From an uncultured Clostridia bacterium (lineage in GTDB: Bacteria > Bacillota > Clostridia > Oscillospirales > Acutalibacteraceae), in NCBI GenBank assembly GCA_947598155.1, contig CANQFC010000009.1, forward strand, positions 1 through 55,114: DNA of 55,114 nt, written 5' to 3'. A program made the translations under genes and the position numbers. Numbering within the stretch: the stretch's first letter is position 1; every line of letters begins with the position of its first letter. This document shows positions 22,590-46,516 of this stretch, one piece after another. The notes beneath the pieces were generated by a model. It had not been told where the DNA came from and made no database searches. It saw nothing but the letters and a program-made list of their open reading frames with translations.

Positions 22590-25085
22590 TCATAGCATCT
22601 TCCTCAGCTTTAAGCGCGCCGCTTCTTCGGCATCGGCTAAAAGCTTTGCCTCGTGTCTTGCCTTAGCCTCGTCGTAAAGGGCGTCAATTTCTTCAAGGTG
22701 AGTGTAGTTTTCAGCCTGTTCAATAATCTTCTTTGCATCAAGATAAGGCTTTGCAGCACGCGCAAAATAAGCCTGTTTATCCATTTCCGCTTTGGAAGCT
22801 TTTCTTGCCGCTTCACGGTTAAAGTTCTGTGCTTTAATCTCTTTTTTGATTGAAACGAACTTCTCCGCGTCGTTTTTCTCTTTGGCGTCTTTTAAATCGA
22901 GATTTAGCTGACGAAGGCGTGCGTCGCATTCGTCTTCTTCATCGAAATATTGTTCAAGAGCCGCAAAATCTGGCTGAGTGAGCTCAGAGACATTTTTAAA
23001 ATACTTGTCAATGGCTTTGCGTGAGCTTTTTTTGCTCCTTGCGAGCTCAATGGCAAATTTACGAAGTTCTTTTTCGCCTTCAGTGCTTTTCGGCATTGCC
23101 TTTGCTTCGGCAAGCTCAGCTTTAATTTCCGACATATCGGCGGAAAGAAGAGCGTTTAAACCGTTATTGTATATTTCCGTGTAACTCTTGAGCTGATGTT
23201 TCATAGTATCGGTCGTAAATTTATCAAGCTCGGCGCATACAAACTGTGAAATTTCAATTTCCTCGTTAAATTCCAAATCTTTGTAGTAGTTCTTTTTGGC
23301 GGATTTTCGCAGTTCTTTGTCATTCTTTATAGATTTATAGCTGTTTTTATCGACTGTTCTCGGGGGCAAAACCGCCGTTTCTCTGGCGTTGCGGATAATA
23401 TCGATTGATTCGACAAGCTTGCCGTCGTTAATGATACCGTTGCCGTAATCCTCAAACAGAGCGCGTACCTGAAGTACTCTGACAATTGATTTTTGCTTTT
23501 TTTCGGTAAAATCATACCAAATGTAAGGAATTACGTTCAAAAGAGCGCCGAAAGCCGAAACAATAATGAGAACGTGAAGCAGTTTTAAGAGAATATTCGT
23601 ATCGTATAAAGCGGAATACGGGTTTATATAGTTGTTTTGCCCGTTTGCGAGTTGTTGCTGCAAAAGCTGACCCACTGTTTGGCCGTCTCCGAGCATACGG
23701 TTAAGAATATTGGGATTAGACGTTACTGATATTGCTGTTGCCTCATTGATGCCGCCTCTTTTATAGATATACGGAAGAACGGCTGAGGTCACAAGGGCGA
23801 TTACCGTGCCGATGGTGTTGATAGCCGAGAACATTCCGTCGATTCGCTCGCCTGTTATATACTGCTGATAGTCGCGAATATCGGCTTGAATTGCGGGGTT
23901 AAGAATATGCGCGAACGAGCCCATAAACGCGTTGAGATACAGGCATCCCATAACAAGCCATATTGTAAGATTATCGATCTTATTAGTAAACGGTAGCATC
24001 ATAAGTATGAAAACAATATTAAAGATGTTTGTTATAACAAGAACGGCCTTTTTGCCCCATTTTTTGATGCAGAACGGCGCGAGCAGCATTCCCCATAACG
24101 AGGCGTTTCCGTAAATAGTCACAACTAAACCGTAAACATTGCCGTTGCATACTCCTCCGTAGTTGTAAAGCCAGTAAAGAATGTTTGCGTATGCGGTTTC
24201 AAGAAATCCTATCCACGTGGCAAGAGAGATTATCCAGAAATACTTGTTTTTGGCAACGGCGCGAAGCGCGTCGGACAGTTTAATTTGAACAACATGAGTT
24301 CTTGCCTGAAGAATTTTTTCTTCTGTATATTTGTAGACAACAATGCAAAGCAAAATACCGATTACCGCGAGAATCGGGTATAGAAATCTATATACACGTA
24401 TATCCGTTGTGTTGGTATGGAAAATGTTTTTGGCGATAATTGGCGTAAAAAGATTTACAACCGTCGGAGCGAAAGAGTAAACTACGGCTTTTACCGACGA
24501 CACGTCGGCTCTTTCTTGCGTGTTGGGGGAAAGAACGTGAATAAGATTTTCGTAGGCGTCATAGAAGAAATAGTAGAAGAAATTTAAAATAAAGTTAAAC
24601 AGCATTATAAGCGCGCATTTGATGATGTAGCCGTATTGGAGCGATCTTGCGCCTTGTCCGCTTCCGAGAGTCAGCGCCCCGGGGAATAAGTCGTACATCT
24701 TTGCATACGGAAACCAAACCATCAATACGCACACAATGGCGGTAGGTATTGCCATTGTAACTATGTAAGGACGGTATTTACCCGCTTTATTGCGGGTGTT
24801 ATCAATAATATTGGCGCGGATGCCCGTAAGCGGAATGTTTGACAAAACCGCAACAACGTACATTATGTACATATCCGTAGGGTCCACGCCGAGAGTGCCT
24901 GAGATTAAGGTATTTCCTGTTGAGAGCAAACAGGCGGTGCCGAGAGTAATAAGCATATAAGCGCCTATTCCTCCGCCCGAATATGCCGCGATTTCACGGA
25001 AAGGCATATATCTGCGGGGTTTGGGAACGCTCCAATAGCTTTGAAGATCGGATAAAAATCCTTTAATTTTTGTAACTAACTGCAT
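22590..25085 (-). CDS. GPH-type sugar transporter (MFS_2) with long C-terminal helical tail, frameshifted near its end
   Basis: This protein has 831 residues. Residues 1-550 form a 12-segment major facilitator of the glycoside-pentoside-hexuronide type (TGIRANIIDNTRNKAGKYRPYI is the conserved loop). Residues ~555-831 form a charged, Lys/Glu/Ala-rich helical tail predicted to lie in the cytoplasm. At about 22608-22612 the frame seems to slip: the other frame continues with KAEEDAMKARIREE, KAAKKAAGKDSKKK and stops at 22525, a natural continuation of the tail. One missing base (an A in the AAA run) would explain it. It is divergent from the glycosidases' side and probably imports the oligosaccharides they digest. 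Confidence 0.85.
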   Translation of the reverse strand: MQLVTKIKGFLSDLQSYWSVPKPRRYMPFREIAAYSGGGIGAYMLITLGTACLLSTGNTLISGTLGVDPTDMYIMYVVAVLSNIPLTGIRANIIDNTRNKAGKYRPYIVTMAIPTAIVCVLMVWFPYAKMYDLFPGALTLGSGQGARSLQYGYIIKCALIMLFNFILNFFYYFFYDAYENLIHVLSPNTQERADVSSVKAVVYSFAPTVVNLFTPIIAKNIFHTNTTDIRVYRFLYPILAVIGILLCIVVYKYTEEKILQARTHVVQIKLSDALRAVAKNKYFWIISLATWIGFLETAYANILYWLYNYGGVCNGNVYGLVVTIYGNASLWGMLLAPFCIKKWGKKAVLVITNIFNIVFILMMLPFTNKIDNLTIWLVMGCLYLNAFMGSFAHILNPAIQADIRDYQQYITGERIDGMFSAINTIGTVIALVTSAVLPYIYKRGGINEATAISVTSNPNILNRMLGDGQTVGQLLQQQLANGQNNYINPYSALYDTNILLKLLHVLIIVSAFGALLNVIPYIWYDFTEKKQKSIVRVLQVRALFEDYGNGIINDGKLVESIDIIRNARETAVLPPRTVDKNSYKSIKNDKELRKSAKKNYYKDLEFNEEIEISQFVCAELDKFTTDTMKHQLKSYTEIYNNGLNALLSADMSEIKAELAEAKAMPKSTEGEKELRKFAIELARSKKSSRKAIDKYFKNVSELTQPDFAALEQYFDEEDECDARLRQLNLDLKDAKEKNDAEKFVSIKKEIKAQNFNREAARKASKAEMDKQAYFARAAKPYLDAKKIIEQAENYTHLEEIDALYDEAKARHEAKLLADAEEAARLKLRKML

Positions 25086-25209: not shown

Positions 25210-25238
25210 TTGACAAAATGTAAATTTAATAAGATAAT
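25210..25238 (+). promoter_or_regulatory. Promoter of the mgtE leader transcript
   Basis: TTGACA (25210-25215), a 17-nt spacer and GATAAT (25233-25238). Transcription would start near 25245 and give a leader of about 160 nt before mgtE. Confidence 0.75.
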
Positions 25239-25294
25239 AAACAGGTAAATATTTTTTTCAAATATTTCAGACCGTTAAAAGGAGCGTGATAATT

Positions 25295-25384
25295 GTGGAT
25301 ACTTACCGAAGTACTAATGCGGAACCTCCGAGTACGAACTGCGTGTTATCCGCAGTTGTCACTTTGAGCGTTTCACTTCGTTAA
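25295..25384 (+). CDS. Candidate mgtE leader peptide (29 codons)
   Basis: A short ORF opens at GTG 25295, 9 nt after AAAGGAG, and ends at TAA 25382-25384. It encodes a 29-residue peptide beginning MDTYRSTNAEPPSTN and ending VVTLSVSLR. The E-P-P run is of the kind that destabilizes translating ribosomes at low Mg2+ in the E. coli mgtL leader. Two hairpins lie inside the ORF: GTACT/AGTAC (25311-25335) with inner CGGA/TCCG, and AACTGCG/CGCAGTT (25337-25357). Its 3' end overlaps the anti-SD sequence for mgtE. I do not recognise it as a named leader; that it is translated is inference from SD, ORF and position. Confidence 0.6.
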   Translation: MDTYRSTNAEPPSTNCVLSAVVTLSVSLR

Positions 25385-25404
25385 AAAATTAAAGAGGAGT
25401 GAAA
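25371..25404 (+). promoter_or_regulatory. SD-sequestering hairpin of mgtE
   Basis: TTTCACTTC (25371-25379), inside the end of the leader ORF, can pair with GGAGTGAAA (25396-25404), which contains part of the mgtE ribosome-binding site. The 9-bp stem has one G-U pair and a 16-nt loop. A ribosome finishing the leader ORF would open it; a ribosome that falls off early would leave it to form. Confidence 0.6.
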
Positions 25405-25407
25405 ATA

Positions 25408-26763
25408 ATGGATGAAATGTTTGAAACAGTTGTTGAAAACATTAAAGAACTTCTGCATGAAAAAAAGTGGGCAAAGCTGAAAGATATTCTTGAAGATATG
25501 AACGAGCAGGATATTGCCGAGCTTTTTATGGAGCTTGAAGAGCGGGAACTAACTTTTATTTACAGACTCCTGCCGAAAGAGCTTGCCGCGGAGGTCTTTG
25601 TCAATATGGAGCCTGAGTATCAGGAGGCGCTGATACGCGCTTTTTCAGACTCGGAGCTTCGTGAGGTTCTTGACGAGCTTTACGTTGACGACGCGGTCGA
25701 TATTATTGAGGAAATGCCCGCAACGCTTGTAAAGAGGATTTTACAGCATACCGACCCCGAAATGCGCAAAAGTATAAACGAGATTTTGCGCTATCCCGAG
25801 GATTCGGCAGGCAGTATTATGACTACCGAGTATGTGGATTTGAAACGGAATATGACAGTTTCCGACGCGTTTACCAGAATACGCAGAACCGGCGTTGACA
25901 AAGAAACGATATATACTTGCTATGTTACCGACAGCAAGCGAAAGCTGAAAGGCGTTGTAACGGCGAAAGACCTTTTGCTCTCCGATGAGAATGATTTAAT
26001 CAGAGATATAATGGAAAGCAACGTTATTTCCGTCTCAACAGTTGAAGATAAAGAGGTAGTCGCGGATATATTCCAAAAATACGATTTTCTTGCTCTGCCC
26101 GTGGTAGACGGAGAGGAAAGACTTGTAGGAATTGTCACGGTTGACGACGCTATCGACGTTTTGCAGGAAGAGGCAACGGAAGATATTGAAAAGATGGCGG
26201 CTATTACGCCTACCGATAAGCCGTATCTTAAAATGGGCGCAGTAGAAACGTGGAAAAAGCGTTTTCCGTGGCTGCTTATTTTAATGGTATCCGCAACATT
26301 TACAGGCAAAATCATTCAGCATTTTGAGTCGGCGTTACAGGCTTATGTAATTCTTACCTCATTTATTCCGATGCTTATGGATACAGGCGGTAATTGCGGC
26401 GGTCAGGCGTCAGTAACAATTATCCGCGGCTTGTCGCTCGGAGATATTGAATTTAAAGATATATTTAAGGTTATATGGAAAGAGTTTAGAGTTGCATTGC
26501 TGTGCGGCATTACGCTTGCAGTTGCAAACTTTGCTAAAATGATGATAATTGACCGCGTTAATATAACTGTTGCGGCCGTTGTCTGTATGACGCTTGTCTG
26601 CACAATTATTGTCGCAAAAATAATAGGCTGCACATTGCCTATTTTTGCAAAGGCAATTAAGCTTGACCCTGCGGTAATGGCAAGTCCGTTTATTACAACG
26701 ATTGTAGACGCGCTTTCGCTTTTGGTATATTTTACTATTGCAGGATTTACCTTAAAACTTTAA
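25408..26763 (+). CDS. mgtE: MgtE-family magnesium transporter
   Basis: This 451-residue protein has the MgtE N domain (about 1-125, with acidic DVDDAVDIIEEMP-type repeats), a CBS pair (about 130-255), a plug helix and a five-helix membrane channel (about 280-450; the segment with MDTGGNCGGQASVTIIRG is the conserved pore loop). It imports Mg2+, with the cytosolic domains closing the channel when Mg2+ is plentiful. ATG 25408 lies 8 nt after GAGGAG and is preferred over GTG 25399, which lies inside the SD hairpin. It ends at a strong terminator. Confidence 0.93.
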   Translation: MDEMFETVVENIKELLHEKKWAKLKDILEDMNEQDIAELFMELEERELTFIYRLLPKELAAEVFVNMEPEYQEALIRAFSDSELREVLDELYVDDAVDIIEEMPATLVKRILQHTDPEMRKSINEILRYPEDSAGSIMTTEYVDLKRNMTVSDAFTRIRRTGVDKETIYTCYVTDSKRKLKGVVTAKDLLLSDENDLIRDIMESNVISVSTVEDKEVVADIFQKYDFLALPVVDGEERLVGIVTVDDAIDVLQEEATEDIEKMAAITPTDKPYLKMGAVETWKKRFPWLLILMVSATFTGKIIQHFESALQAYVILTSFIPMLMDTGGNCGGQASVTIIRGLSLGDIEFKDIFKVIWKEFRVALLCGITLAVANFAKMMIIDRVNITVAAVVCMTLVCTIIVAKIIGCTLPIFAKAIKLDPAVMASPFITTIVDALSLLVYFTIAGFTLKL

Positions 26764-26765
26764 AA

Positions 26766-26799
26766 AATATCCCATACATTTTCTGTATGGGATATTTTA
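26766..26799 (+). terminator. Intrinsic terminator of mgtE
   Basis: ATATCCCATACA pairs with TGTATGGGATAT around a short loop, followed by TTTTA. Confidence 0.9.
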
Positions 26800-46323: not shown

Positions 46324-46352
46324 TTGACAAACCTTTTTAGGTGTGTTAATAT
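46324..46352 (+). promoter_or_regulatory. Internal promoter for rplJ-rplL
   Basis: TTGACA (46324-46329), 17 nt, TAATAT (46347-46352), directly after rplA. Confidence 0.85.
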
Positions 46353-46480
46353 AACTTTGCTTGCCGAAGACAGTAGGTGCATTTTGCGTAAAGGTTTTAC
46401 CCTGCCTGCCGAGGAAAAGACTTATTTACATTAAAGTTTTGAGCCTCTCTGTCTTTTGGCAGAGAGGTTTTTGTCTCATA
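46353..46480 (+). promoter_or_regulatory. L10 leader (ribosomal protein autoregulation)
   Basis: The non-coding stretch between rplA and rplJ has pairing segments (TGCTTGCCGAAGACAGTAGG and CCTGCCTGCC) and ends in an attenuator hairpin, CCTCTCTGTC with GGCAGAGAGG, followed by TTTTTGT. This is the layout of the Firmicute L10 leader, where excess L10-L12 complex promotes termination. Confidence 0.88.
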
Positions 46481-46516
46481 AAGCAAGCGTAACATTTTAA
46501 TAGGAGGTGAATTCGT

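Follow-up and report, generated by a model that had tools for sequence, protein, structure and literature searches.

Leader ORFs whose translation gauges Mg2+ by the behaviour of the ribosome are known from enterobacteria, where mgtL and mgtQ are the examples. The question raised by the locus analysed here is whether a leader of this kind stands before the magnesium transporter gene mgtE of an uncultured Clostridia bacterium (Acutalibacteraceae), and, if so, what in it would read Mg2+. The locus lies in a DNA stretch of 55,114 nucleotides, which we call the window. The original prediction held that mgtE is preceded by a 29-codon, GTG-started leader ORF with a promoter and a Shine–Dalgarno (SD) sequence of its own, and that the end of this ORF pairs over the mgtE SD. 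These elements were all recovered (Table 1), and the ORF turned out to be part of a wider family. The leader region lies between mgtE and the start, at 25085, of a divergent gene on the minus strand, and the peptide that it encodes is VDTYRSTNAEPPSTNCVLSAVVTLSVSLR. A second in-frame GTG is located upstream, at 25286; the start at 25295 is the one common to all 13 of 13 aligned relatives. An SD-like sequence also lies 5' of the aligned start in the relatives, having been a criterion when ORFs were picked.

Table 1. Features of the leader–mgtE locus in the window.
Feature	Position	Strand	Basis
Sigma-70-type promoter-like sequence, TTGACA-17-GATAAT	25210-25238	+	Consensus scan, 11 of 12 positions; by itself no proof of function
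SD of the leader ORF, AAAAGGAG	25277-25284	+	Read from the sequence
5' arm of the 16-bp stem over the leader start codon	25286-25301	+	Minimum-energy fold; partner 25347-25362
Leader ORF, 29 codons and TAA (25382-25384), GTG start	25295-25384	+	In-frame conservation over about codons 1-14
Conserved N-terminal codons 1-14, MDTYRSTNAEPPST; Asp2, CGA-AGT, PPS	25295-25336	+	Alignments, codon tables
Conserved CGA arginine codon, codon 5 in the window	25307-25309	+	Codon counts
3' arm of the 16-bp stem	25347-25362	+	Minimum-energy fold, covariation
Anti-SD segment TTTCACTTC, overlapping the last leader codons	25371-25379	+	Fold; joint pairing with leader codons and SD
mgtE SD region GGAGTGAAA, paired with 25371-25379	25396-25404	+	Minimum-energy fold
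mgtE, magnesium transporter, 451 aa, ATG at 25408	25408-26763	+	TIGR00400, 492 bits; Pfam MgtE, MgtE_N, CBS

Two other elements of the window were noted in passing. Directly 3' of mgtE, at 26764-26798, a perfect inverted repeat (AAAATATCCCATACA...TGTATGGGATATTTT) is visible by eye and is likely a transcription terminator, and at 46346-46482 on the plus strand there is a ribosomal protein L10 leader RNA (RF00557, 81.7 bits).

The mgtE loci of other genomes were collected as the best 30 from 59 genomes, 50 of which had a match, and the best 80 from named genome contigs, with nine loci (L001, L032-L037, L039 and L040) left out as duplicates. Among the 102 non-redundant loci, a leader of this family was present 5' of mgtE in 70. 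A single detection rule found a leader ORF in 71 of the 102 upstream regions and in 1 on the reverse strand, and the same rule applied to shuffled upstream DNA returned a mean of 1.35 per 102, with a maximum of 4 in 20 rounds. The frequent N-terminus of these SD-preceded ORFs reads MDAGS(S/T)xGTxxGRS, the family consensus is MDAGSSxGTxxGRS, and leaders of the window's genus read MDAGxxKSADPxPPRS or MDTYRSTxAKPPS. The leader ORF is almost certainly real and conserved. One of its carriers, [Clostridium] viride DSM 6836 (L100), is a cultured organism. Upstream of mgtE in L077, L084 and L087 we also noticed, partly by eye, the divergent leaders MSVPRSS, MNVPRSN and MSVPQSS, which lack Asp2; in L077 and L084 the Arg is encoded by CGA and followed by Ser.

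The M-box (ykoK, RF00380) controls the same kind of gene as the leader, and it differs in being a separate RNA that lies 5' of the leader and is absent from the window. Scored by a sequence signature that agreed with Rfam on the 20 loci checked, the 102 loci divided into 46 with a leader and no M-box, 24 with a leader and an upstream M-box, 6 with an M-box alone, and 26 in which no leader was called and no M-box scored, of which 3 were truncated and too short for judgement. The leader was the commoner of the two among the mgtE loci examined (70 vs 30 of 102). Rfam itself placed an M-box in 10 of the 20 mgtE loci on which it was run, 8 of which carried the leader as well. The RF00380 covariance model found no M-box in the window or in the host genome assembly, and six further loci of the window's genus (L003-L006, L008 and L031) have the leader and lack the M-box. 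The leader could explain how Mg2+ import is controlled in genomes without a detectable M-box, the window's host among them.

Neither Rfam, searched with six relatives, nor Pfam and NCBIfam, searched with five leader peptides, gave a match to the leader. We found no mention of it in the consulted portions of PMC6429828 and PMC10219788, and no description of an mgtE leader peptide or upstream ORF for this group in a literature search that subscription papers and preprints mostly fell outside. Two published arrangements come near it. In Mycobacterium tuberculosis, a conserved upstream ORF, rv1805A, likewise lies 3' of the pe20 M-box, in another phylum and before another gene, the likeness being one of description and not of sequence (PMC12810186, in part). 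The mgtE motif SRC-65-1 is likewise a cis-regulatory RNA candidate upstream of mgtE, one whose stem takes in both SD and AUG; it is set apart, again by description, as a riboswitch candidate rather than an upstream ORF, with 32 examples, all from Thioalkalivibrio (PMC11109978, in part).

Genes downstream of the leader

The genes that follow the leader were surveyed with R1, a sequence-only covariance model of the SD and the first 19 codons. Over 295 genomes of the order, R1 matched 64 genomes at E<=0.01, in 67 places including the window: 52 before mgtE (the window among them), 5 before mgtA, 1 cut off by a contig end (L150) and 9 elsewhere. At E<=1e-3 there remained 50 places with the window, of which 43 precede MgtE and 4 MgtA, 1 is cut off and 2 lie elsewhere. 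A second model, R2, gave 30 places over 391 genomes of the class at E<=1e-3 (27 MgtE, 2 MgtA and 1 other), two of which (L205 and L208) are from genomes already matched by R1, and 6 places over 299 genomes of the phylum (5 MgtE and 1 MgtA), all outside the window's class; since R2 missed the window's own leader at E<=1e-3, these searches undercount divergent members. Places were classified by same-strand tblastn and inspection, L143 being recognised as a P-type ATPase by its N-terminal sequence. The R1 and R2 matches before non-importer genes were judged to be due to chance and set aside; the genes concerned are presumably three dnaX-like genes (with the segment V(V/I)EMDAASNNG), a secD-like gene, an F1-ATPase-like gene and others, with E about 1e-3 to 1e-2, and an ffh-like gene (L204).

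The importer start lies 60-330 bases past the leader start in 87 of 90 MgtE/MgtA places (median 166), and further away in L119, L167 and L217. As in leaders of the mgtL/mgtQ type, then, a short ORF with an SD of its own stands close to the importer gene, the SD having been required in picking. For the ATPases of L126, L138, L139 and L167, NCBIfam ranks two magnesium-translocating ATPase models highest, by about 300 bits or more over the next type; that of L167 exceeds the curated cut-off, and the other three, cut by the locus end, fall below it. L190, L201 and L217 were assigned to MgtA by tblastn alone (58-61% identity). Rfam also found an M-box before the mgtA leader of L126. TIGR01524 matches under the cut-off, which are probably other P-type ATPases, were left unclassified and unused.

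MgtE and MgtA belong to protein families that are not related to each other, so the leader follows the substrate and not the gene. That it is a cis-regulator of Mg2+ import is very probable, and the signal, as read from this gene context, is probably Mg2+.

Seven mgtA loci above the cut-off were inspected. Two of them, L218 and L219, have a variant leader and L221 has a possible divergent one; inspection by eye found no leader in the other four. The variant upstream of mgtA in L218 and L219 (MSDESSSGMEPDGLSS..., by eye) follows an apparent M-box and contains Glu-Pro-Asp, which is nearer to E. coli mgtL. The short SD-preceded ORF upstream of mgtA in L221 (MDGSPDGLCNIHD..., MDGSPDGL...) is possibly a divergent member of the leader family. 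We also observed that genome G282 carries near-identical leader copies with the same mgtA N-terminus on contigs C7 and C33 (L139 and L143), possibly as a result of duplicated assembly.

Codon conservation and the CGA codon

Re-fetched or near-duplicate loci (L116, L129, L132, L158, L178-L181, L205 and L208) were left out. The divergent L084 was excluded, as were the contig-end loci L143 and L150 from the leader tables and L167 from the later leader tables and the pairing tests; L154, L166 and L211 precede MgtE, yet their leaders are absent from the leader tables. For the alternative-pairing test the 150 leaders were reduced to 146 by the exclusion of L119, L138, L139 and L217, and afterwards to 145 by that of L184, which had a mis-called start.

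Over codons 2-9 of 110 distinct leaders, entropy was 0.77, 0.77 and 1.48 by codon position (column-permutation p 0.0015), and the synonymous share of single-base codon differences was 0.61 against 0.24 expected, with 0.25 and 0.20 in the other frames. Because ORFs were chosen by Asp/Glu and Gly, this share is inflated at codons 2-4; for codons 5-9 by themselves it was 0.37 vs 0.20 (other frames, 0.34 vs 0.31 and 0.25 vs 0.17). The 13 distinct window-like leaders gave 0.52 vs 0.28, with a borderline third-position excess (permutation p 0.051). At tail codons 21-26 the share was 0.33 vs 0.27, and from about codon 14-17 onwards the leaders diverge in frame, length and stop position, as do even the near-identical L003 and L004. 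The TLSVSLR tail that the original prediction expected relatives to share is therefore not a family feature; the conservation that it looked for was found in the N-terminal frame and, across the wider family, in the RNA pairing, and not in the C-terminal codons.

This pattern bears on the idea that the ORF makes a small protein acting in trans, for example on the transporter. Such a protein would suit the conserved N-terminus and the dedicated SD, and it is hard to square with frame, length and sequence that are unconserved past about codon 14-17 and with the lack of a Pfam or NCBIfam match in the five leader peptides scanned; we give it next to no credence.

An arginine codon of the leader is nearly fixed. 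Of 120 leaders examined, 114 have an Arg within codons 4-20, and the first such Arg is encoded by CGA in 102. For comparison, CGA accounts for 5.4% of the 2001 Arg codons counted in the genes downstream and, within long ORFs of the window, for 7.5% of 560. This CGA falls at codons 11-15 in 86 of the 114 leaders. The codon after it is AGT in 61 of the 114 and otherwise varied, the CGA being kept with other next codons, and the AGT may reflect pairing with an ACTTC-like anti-SD. Asp or Glu is the second residue in 119 of 120 leaders, a count to be read in view of the selection of ORFs, most of which were chosen for a GAN codon in second place; variants lacking an acidic codon 2 are L084 and L211, with Asn2, and L077 and L087, with Ser2 (all except L084 found by eye).

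Glu-Pro-Pro had originally been proposed as the sensor, on the model of mgtL, in which case this motif would destabilise ribosomes at low Mg2+. It is a feature of the window's leader and of those of L003 and L004, and N-terminal acidic residues are a known destabilising context (PMC11282234 and PMC8092293, both in part), di-acidic residues alone being described as insufficient (PMC11282234, in part). Across the family, Glu-Pro-Pro occurs in 3 of 150 leaders and an acidic residue followed by Pro in 18 of 150, and Lys replaces Glu in 11 of 14 window-like leaders. The repeated-acidic motif by which ribosome-destabilising leaders are known, with two acidic residues within one residue of each other, was seen in 12 of 150, and 73 of 150 have at least two acidic residues among the first 16. 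The proposed motif is not supported as the sensor, and we consider a sensor of this kind very unlikely.

The near-fixed CGA raises another possibility, which we put forward tentatively and with more doubt than belief: a new Mg2+ gauge in which a nascent peptide of about 13 residues (Met-Asp-Ala-Gly-Ser...Gly-Arg) would pause in an Mg2+-dependent manner at the nearly invariant CGA. Such a gauge would work by codon decoding, not by drop-off at acidic residues and Pro, and would be a module portable between two unrelated importer families of the phylum.

RNA pairing in the leader

The leader RNA of the window folds with -58.8 kcal/mol (z -6.25), and none of 200 shuffles was equally stable. The minimum-energy fold contains the 9-bp pairing of TTTCACTTC with GGAGTGAAA over the mgtE SD, as had been anticipated. 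The two hairpins described inside the ORF were roughly right, the fold consisting of one long branched stem and the SD hairpin, with a 16-bp stem that hides the leader's own start codon. Among 14 sequences of the window's subclade, the window included, the core of this leader-start stem (AATTGTGGA:TCCGCAATT) has two-sided changes at 3 of 9 pairs, which 7 of 500 shuffles matched. Covariation of the mgtE SD helix within the subclade was not significant. The window's tail segment pairs jointly with the leader codons and the SD at p = 1/51, the smallest value possible.

A second helix joins leader codons 7-10 to the segment just 5' of the anti-SD. In 15 sequences, 14 of them from the window's genus and the other being L038, it has two-sided changes at 6 of 9 pairs, and together with the SD helix it accounts for 16 two-sided cells against 6.1 in shuffles (0 of 500 reaching that number); the count of two-sided pairs alone is less striking (6 vs a mean of 3.5, matched in 26 of 500 shuffles). 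Sliding the tested helices by one base cut the pairing from 93% to 51-59%. When segments were swapped between loci, a leader's own codons 7-12 gave stronger pairing with its tail than those of other leaders (mean percentile 0.287, n=145, p 7e-16). The tail motif GTGYY-N0-7-TTCC, the complement of GGNAGT...GGCAC in the leader, was present in 32 of 119 leaders vs 1.9 in shuffles. A 12-base tail segment that pairs strongly with both the leader codons and the importer SD reached p<0.05 in 32 of 146 loci (median p 0.15). An older comparison with simple shuffles (106 loci), of the duplex energies that leader codons and the SD form with the tail, had given shifts of modest size (mean z -0.56 and -1.26), due in part to mis-called starts, and is superseded. 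The leader is conserved both as codons and as RNA.

A strong fold (z -6.25) with covarying helices is also what would be expected of a metal-binding riboswitch that reads Mg2+ directly, with the ORF incidental. Against this, third positions vary most, changes are mainly synonymous in a single frame, and Rfam at E up to 1 returned just the M-box and tRNA in six relatives. We regard a riboswitch as improbable.

Some loci seem to pair in ways of their own. In L201 and L211, leader codons and tail appear to pair over about 10-15 bases with sequences unlike the consensus (by eye, and for L201 also by the swap test), and in L211 the stretch that follows the mgtE SD resembles the leader segment (by eye).

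Ribosome position and the proposed switch

The effect of a translating ribosome was modelled by treating the bases that it covers as unpaired and reading out the cost of opening the importer SD. This cost averaged 6.7 kcal/mol for naked RNA and 9.15 kcal/mol with a ribosome at codon 9, a rise of 2.45 kcal/mol; opening became harder by >0.5 kcal/mol in 100 of 145 loci and easier in 3. A mask at codon 5 gave 8.5 kcal/mol (93 harder, 26 easier) and one at the CGA codon about 9.1 kcal/mol (127 loci). Masks elsewhere gave 6.3 kcal/mol at the start (-0.39), 6.1 at codon 20 (-0.58) and 6.7 at the stop (+0.05; 139 loci). With shuffled tails, the codon-9 effect dropped to 0.48 kcal/mol (p 2e-14). Thus, in these models, the importer SD of most loci becomes more closed when a ribosome occupies the conserved codons. 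Naked real leaders are themselves harder to open than shuffled-tail ones (6.71 vs 4.85 kcal/mol), so that openness without a ribosome is merely relative, and this prior closure slightly lowers our confidence in an SD switch.

The reading that we favour, with some reserve, is that the leader is a translation-coupled SD switch or attenuator, probably Mg2+-responsive, which would resemble mgtL and mgtQ in principle and differ from them in motif. It would tie translation of the first ~14 codons to how far the ribosome-binding site (RBS) of the Mg2+ importer gene is exposed. With codons ~5-13 free of ribosomes, the leader would pair with the anti-SD and leave the importer SD more accessible; a ribosome dwelling on these codons would release the anti-SD, which would then close the importer SD. 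Dwelling could be set by Asp2 near the start and by the rare CGA that ends the conserved part, the candidates for the sensing step being ribosome drop-off past Asp2 and pausing at CGA. At low Mg2+, drop-off or quicker clearance would be favoured and the importer made; ample Mg2+ would have the reverse effect.

A ribosome-based switch could also respond to something other than Mg2+. If the leader sensed decoding or ribosome stress (slow CGA, uncharged Arg-tRNA, ribosome drugs), Mg2+ import would be the response that stabilises ribosomes. The CGA codon, nearly fixed at 102 of 114 when the next codon is AGT in just 61 of 114, would fit such a sensor, as would the weight of ribosome position in the folding model; the strong tie to Mg2+ importers and the co-occurrence with an M-box in 24 loci favour Mg2+, and we think stress sensing unlikely.

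The switch that we favour has its closest likeness in Salmonella mgtQ, an 8-codon ORF before mgtB: both are short ORFs 5' of an Mg2+ transporter gene with alternative stems, which for the present leader are predicted, and the Asp2 of mgtQ is also found among the leaders picked here (PMC8092293, in part, for mgtQ). The mgtQ RNA forms either stems 1:2 and 3:4 or stem 2:3, the transporter RBS being hidden in 3:4, and its ribosome-destabilising acidic codons favour exposure (PMC8092293, in part). In most loci, the modelled direction, in which loss of the ribosome opens the RBS, fits this idea, whereas in the window's subclade it does not (PMC8092293, in part, for mgtQ). mgtQ itself differs in relying on Asp2 with Glu5, in its length of 8 codons and in its place between two operon genes (PMC8092293, in part). 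The present leader has a ~14-codon motif with a near-fixed CGA, and its importer genes, within the phylum of the window, are mgtE and mgtA. The comparison with E. coli mgtL made in the original prediction was apt as far as mechanism goes: in the mgtL of E. coli and Salmonella mgtA, too, an importer gene has a leader peptide and ribosome behaviour is the Mg2+ gauge (PMC11282234, in part). The differences are the EPDP motif and Rho-dependent termination of mgtL; here the predicted output is SD exposure, and a repeated acidic/Pro motif is missing in most leaders. The family may therefore work like the mgtL and mgtQ leaders and yet lack the acidic/Pro feature that defines them. A second family with a different motif, if true, would suggest that the logic of the ribosome gauge arose more than once, and it would offer a simple test bed for which feature (Asp2, CGA or Gly-Arg-Ser) makes translation read Mg2+.

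Alternative structures in which the transporter RBS is either hidden or exposed are thus predicted for the family, and weakly for the window itself, where the effects are small (1.5 kcal/mol naked and 1.5-2.9 kcal/mol masked). In the window's subclade the modelled direction is not followed, the SD becoming easier to open with a mask at the start in 11 of 15 loci (p 0.004) and with one at the CGA in 9 of 12 (p 0.007). This subclade, which has an additional stem across the leader start, may work with another polarity. A further variation was seen by eye in the compact mgtA leaders of L138 and L139, where the mgtA RBS itself (GGGTATT) looks to be the direct pairing partner of leader codons (AATACCC in L138), possibly with a matched change in L139; pairing of this kind would give a switch of the opposite sign.
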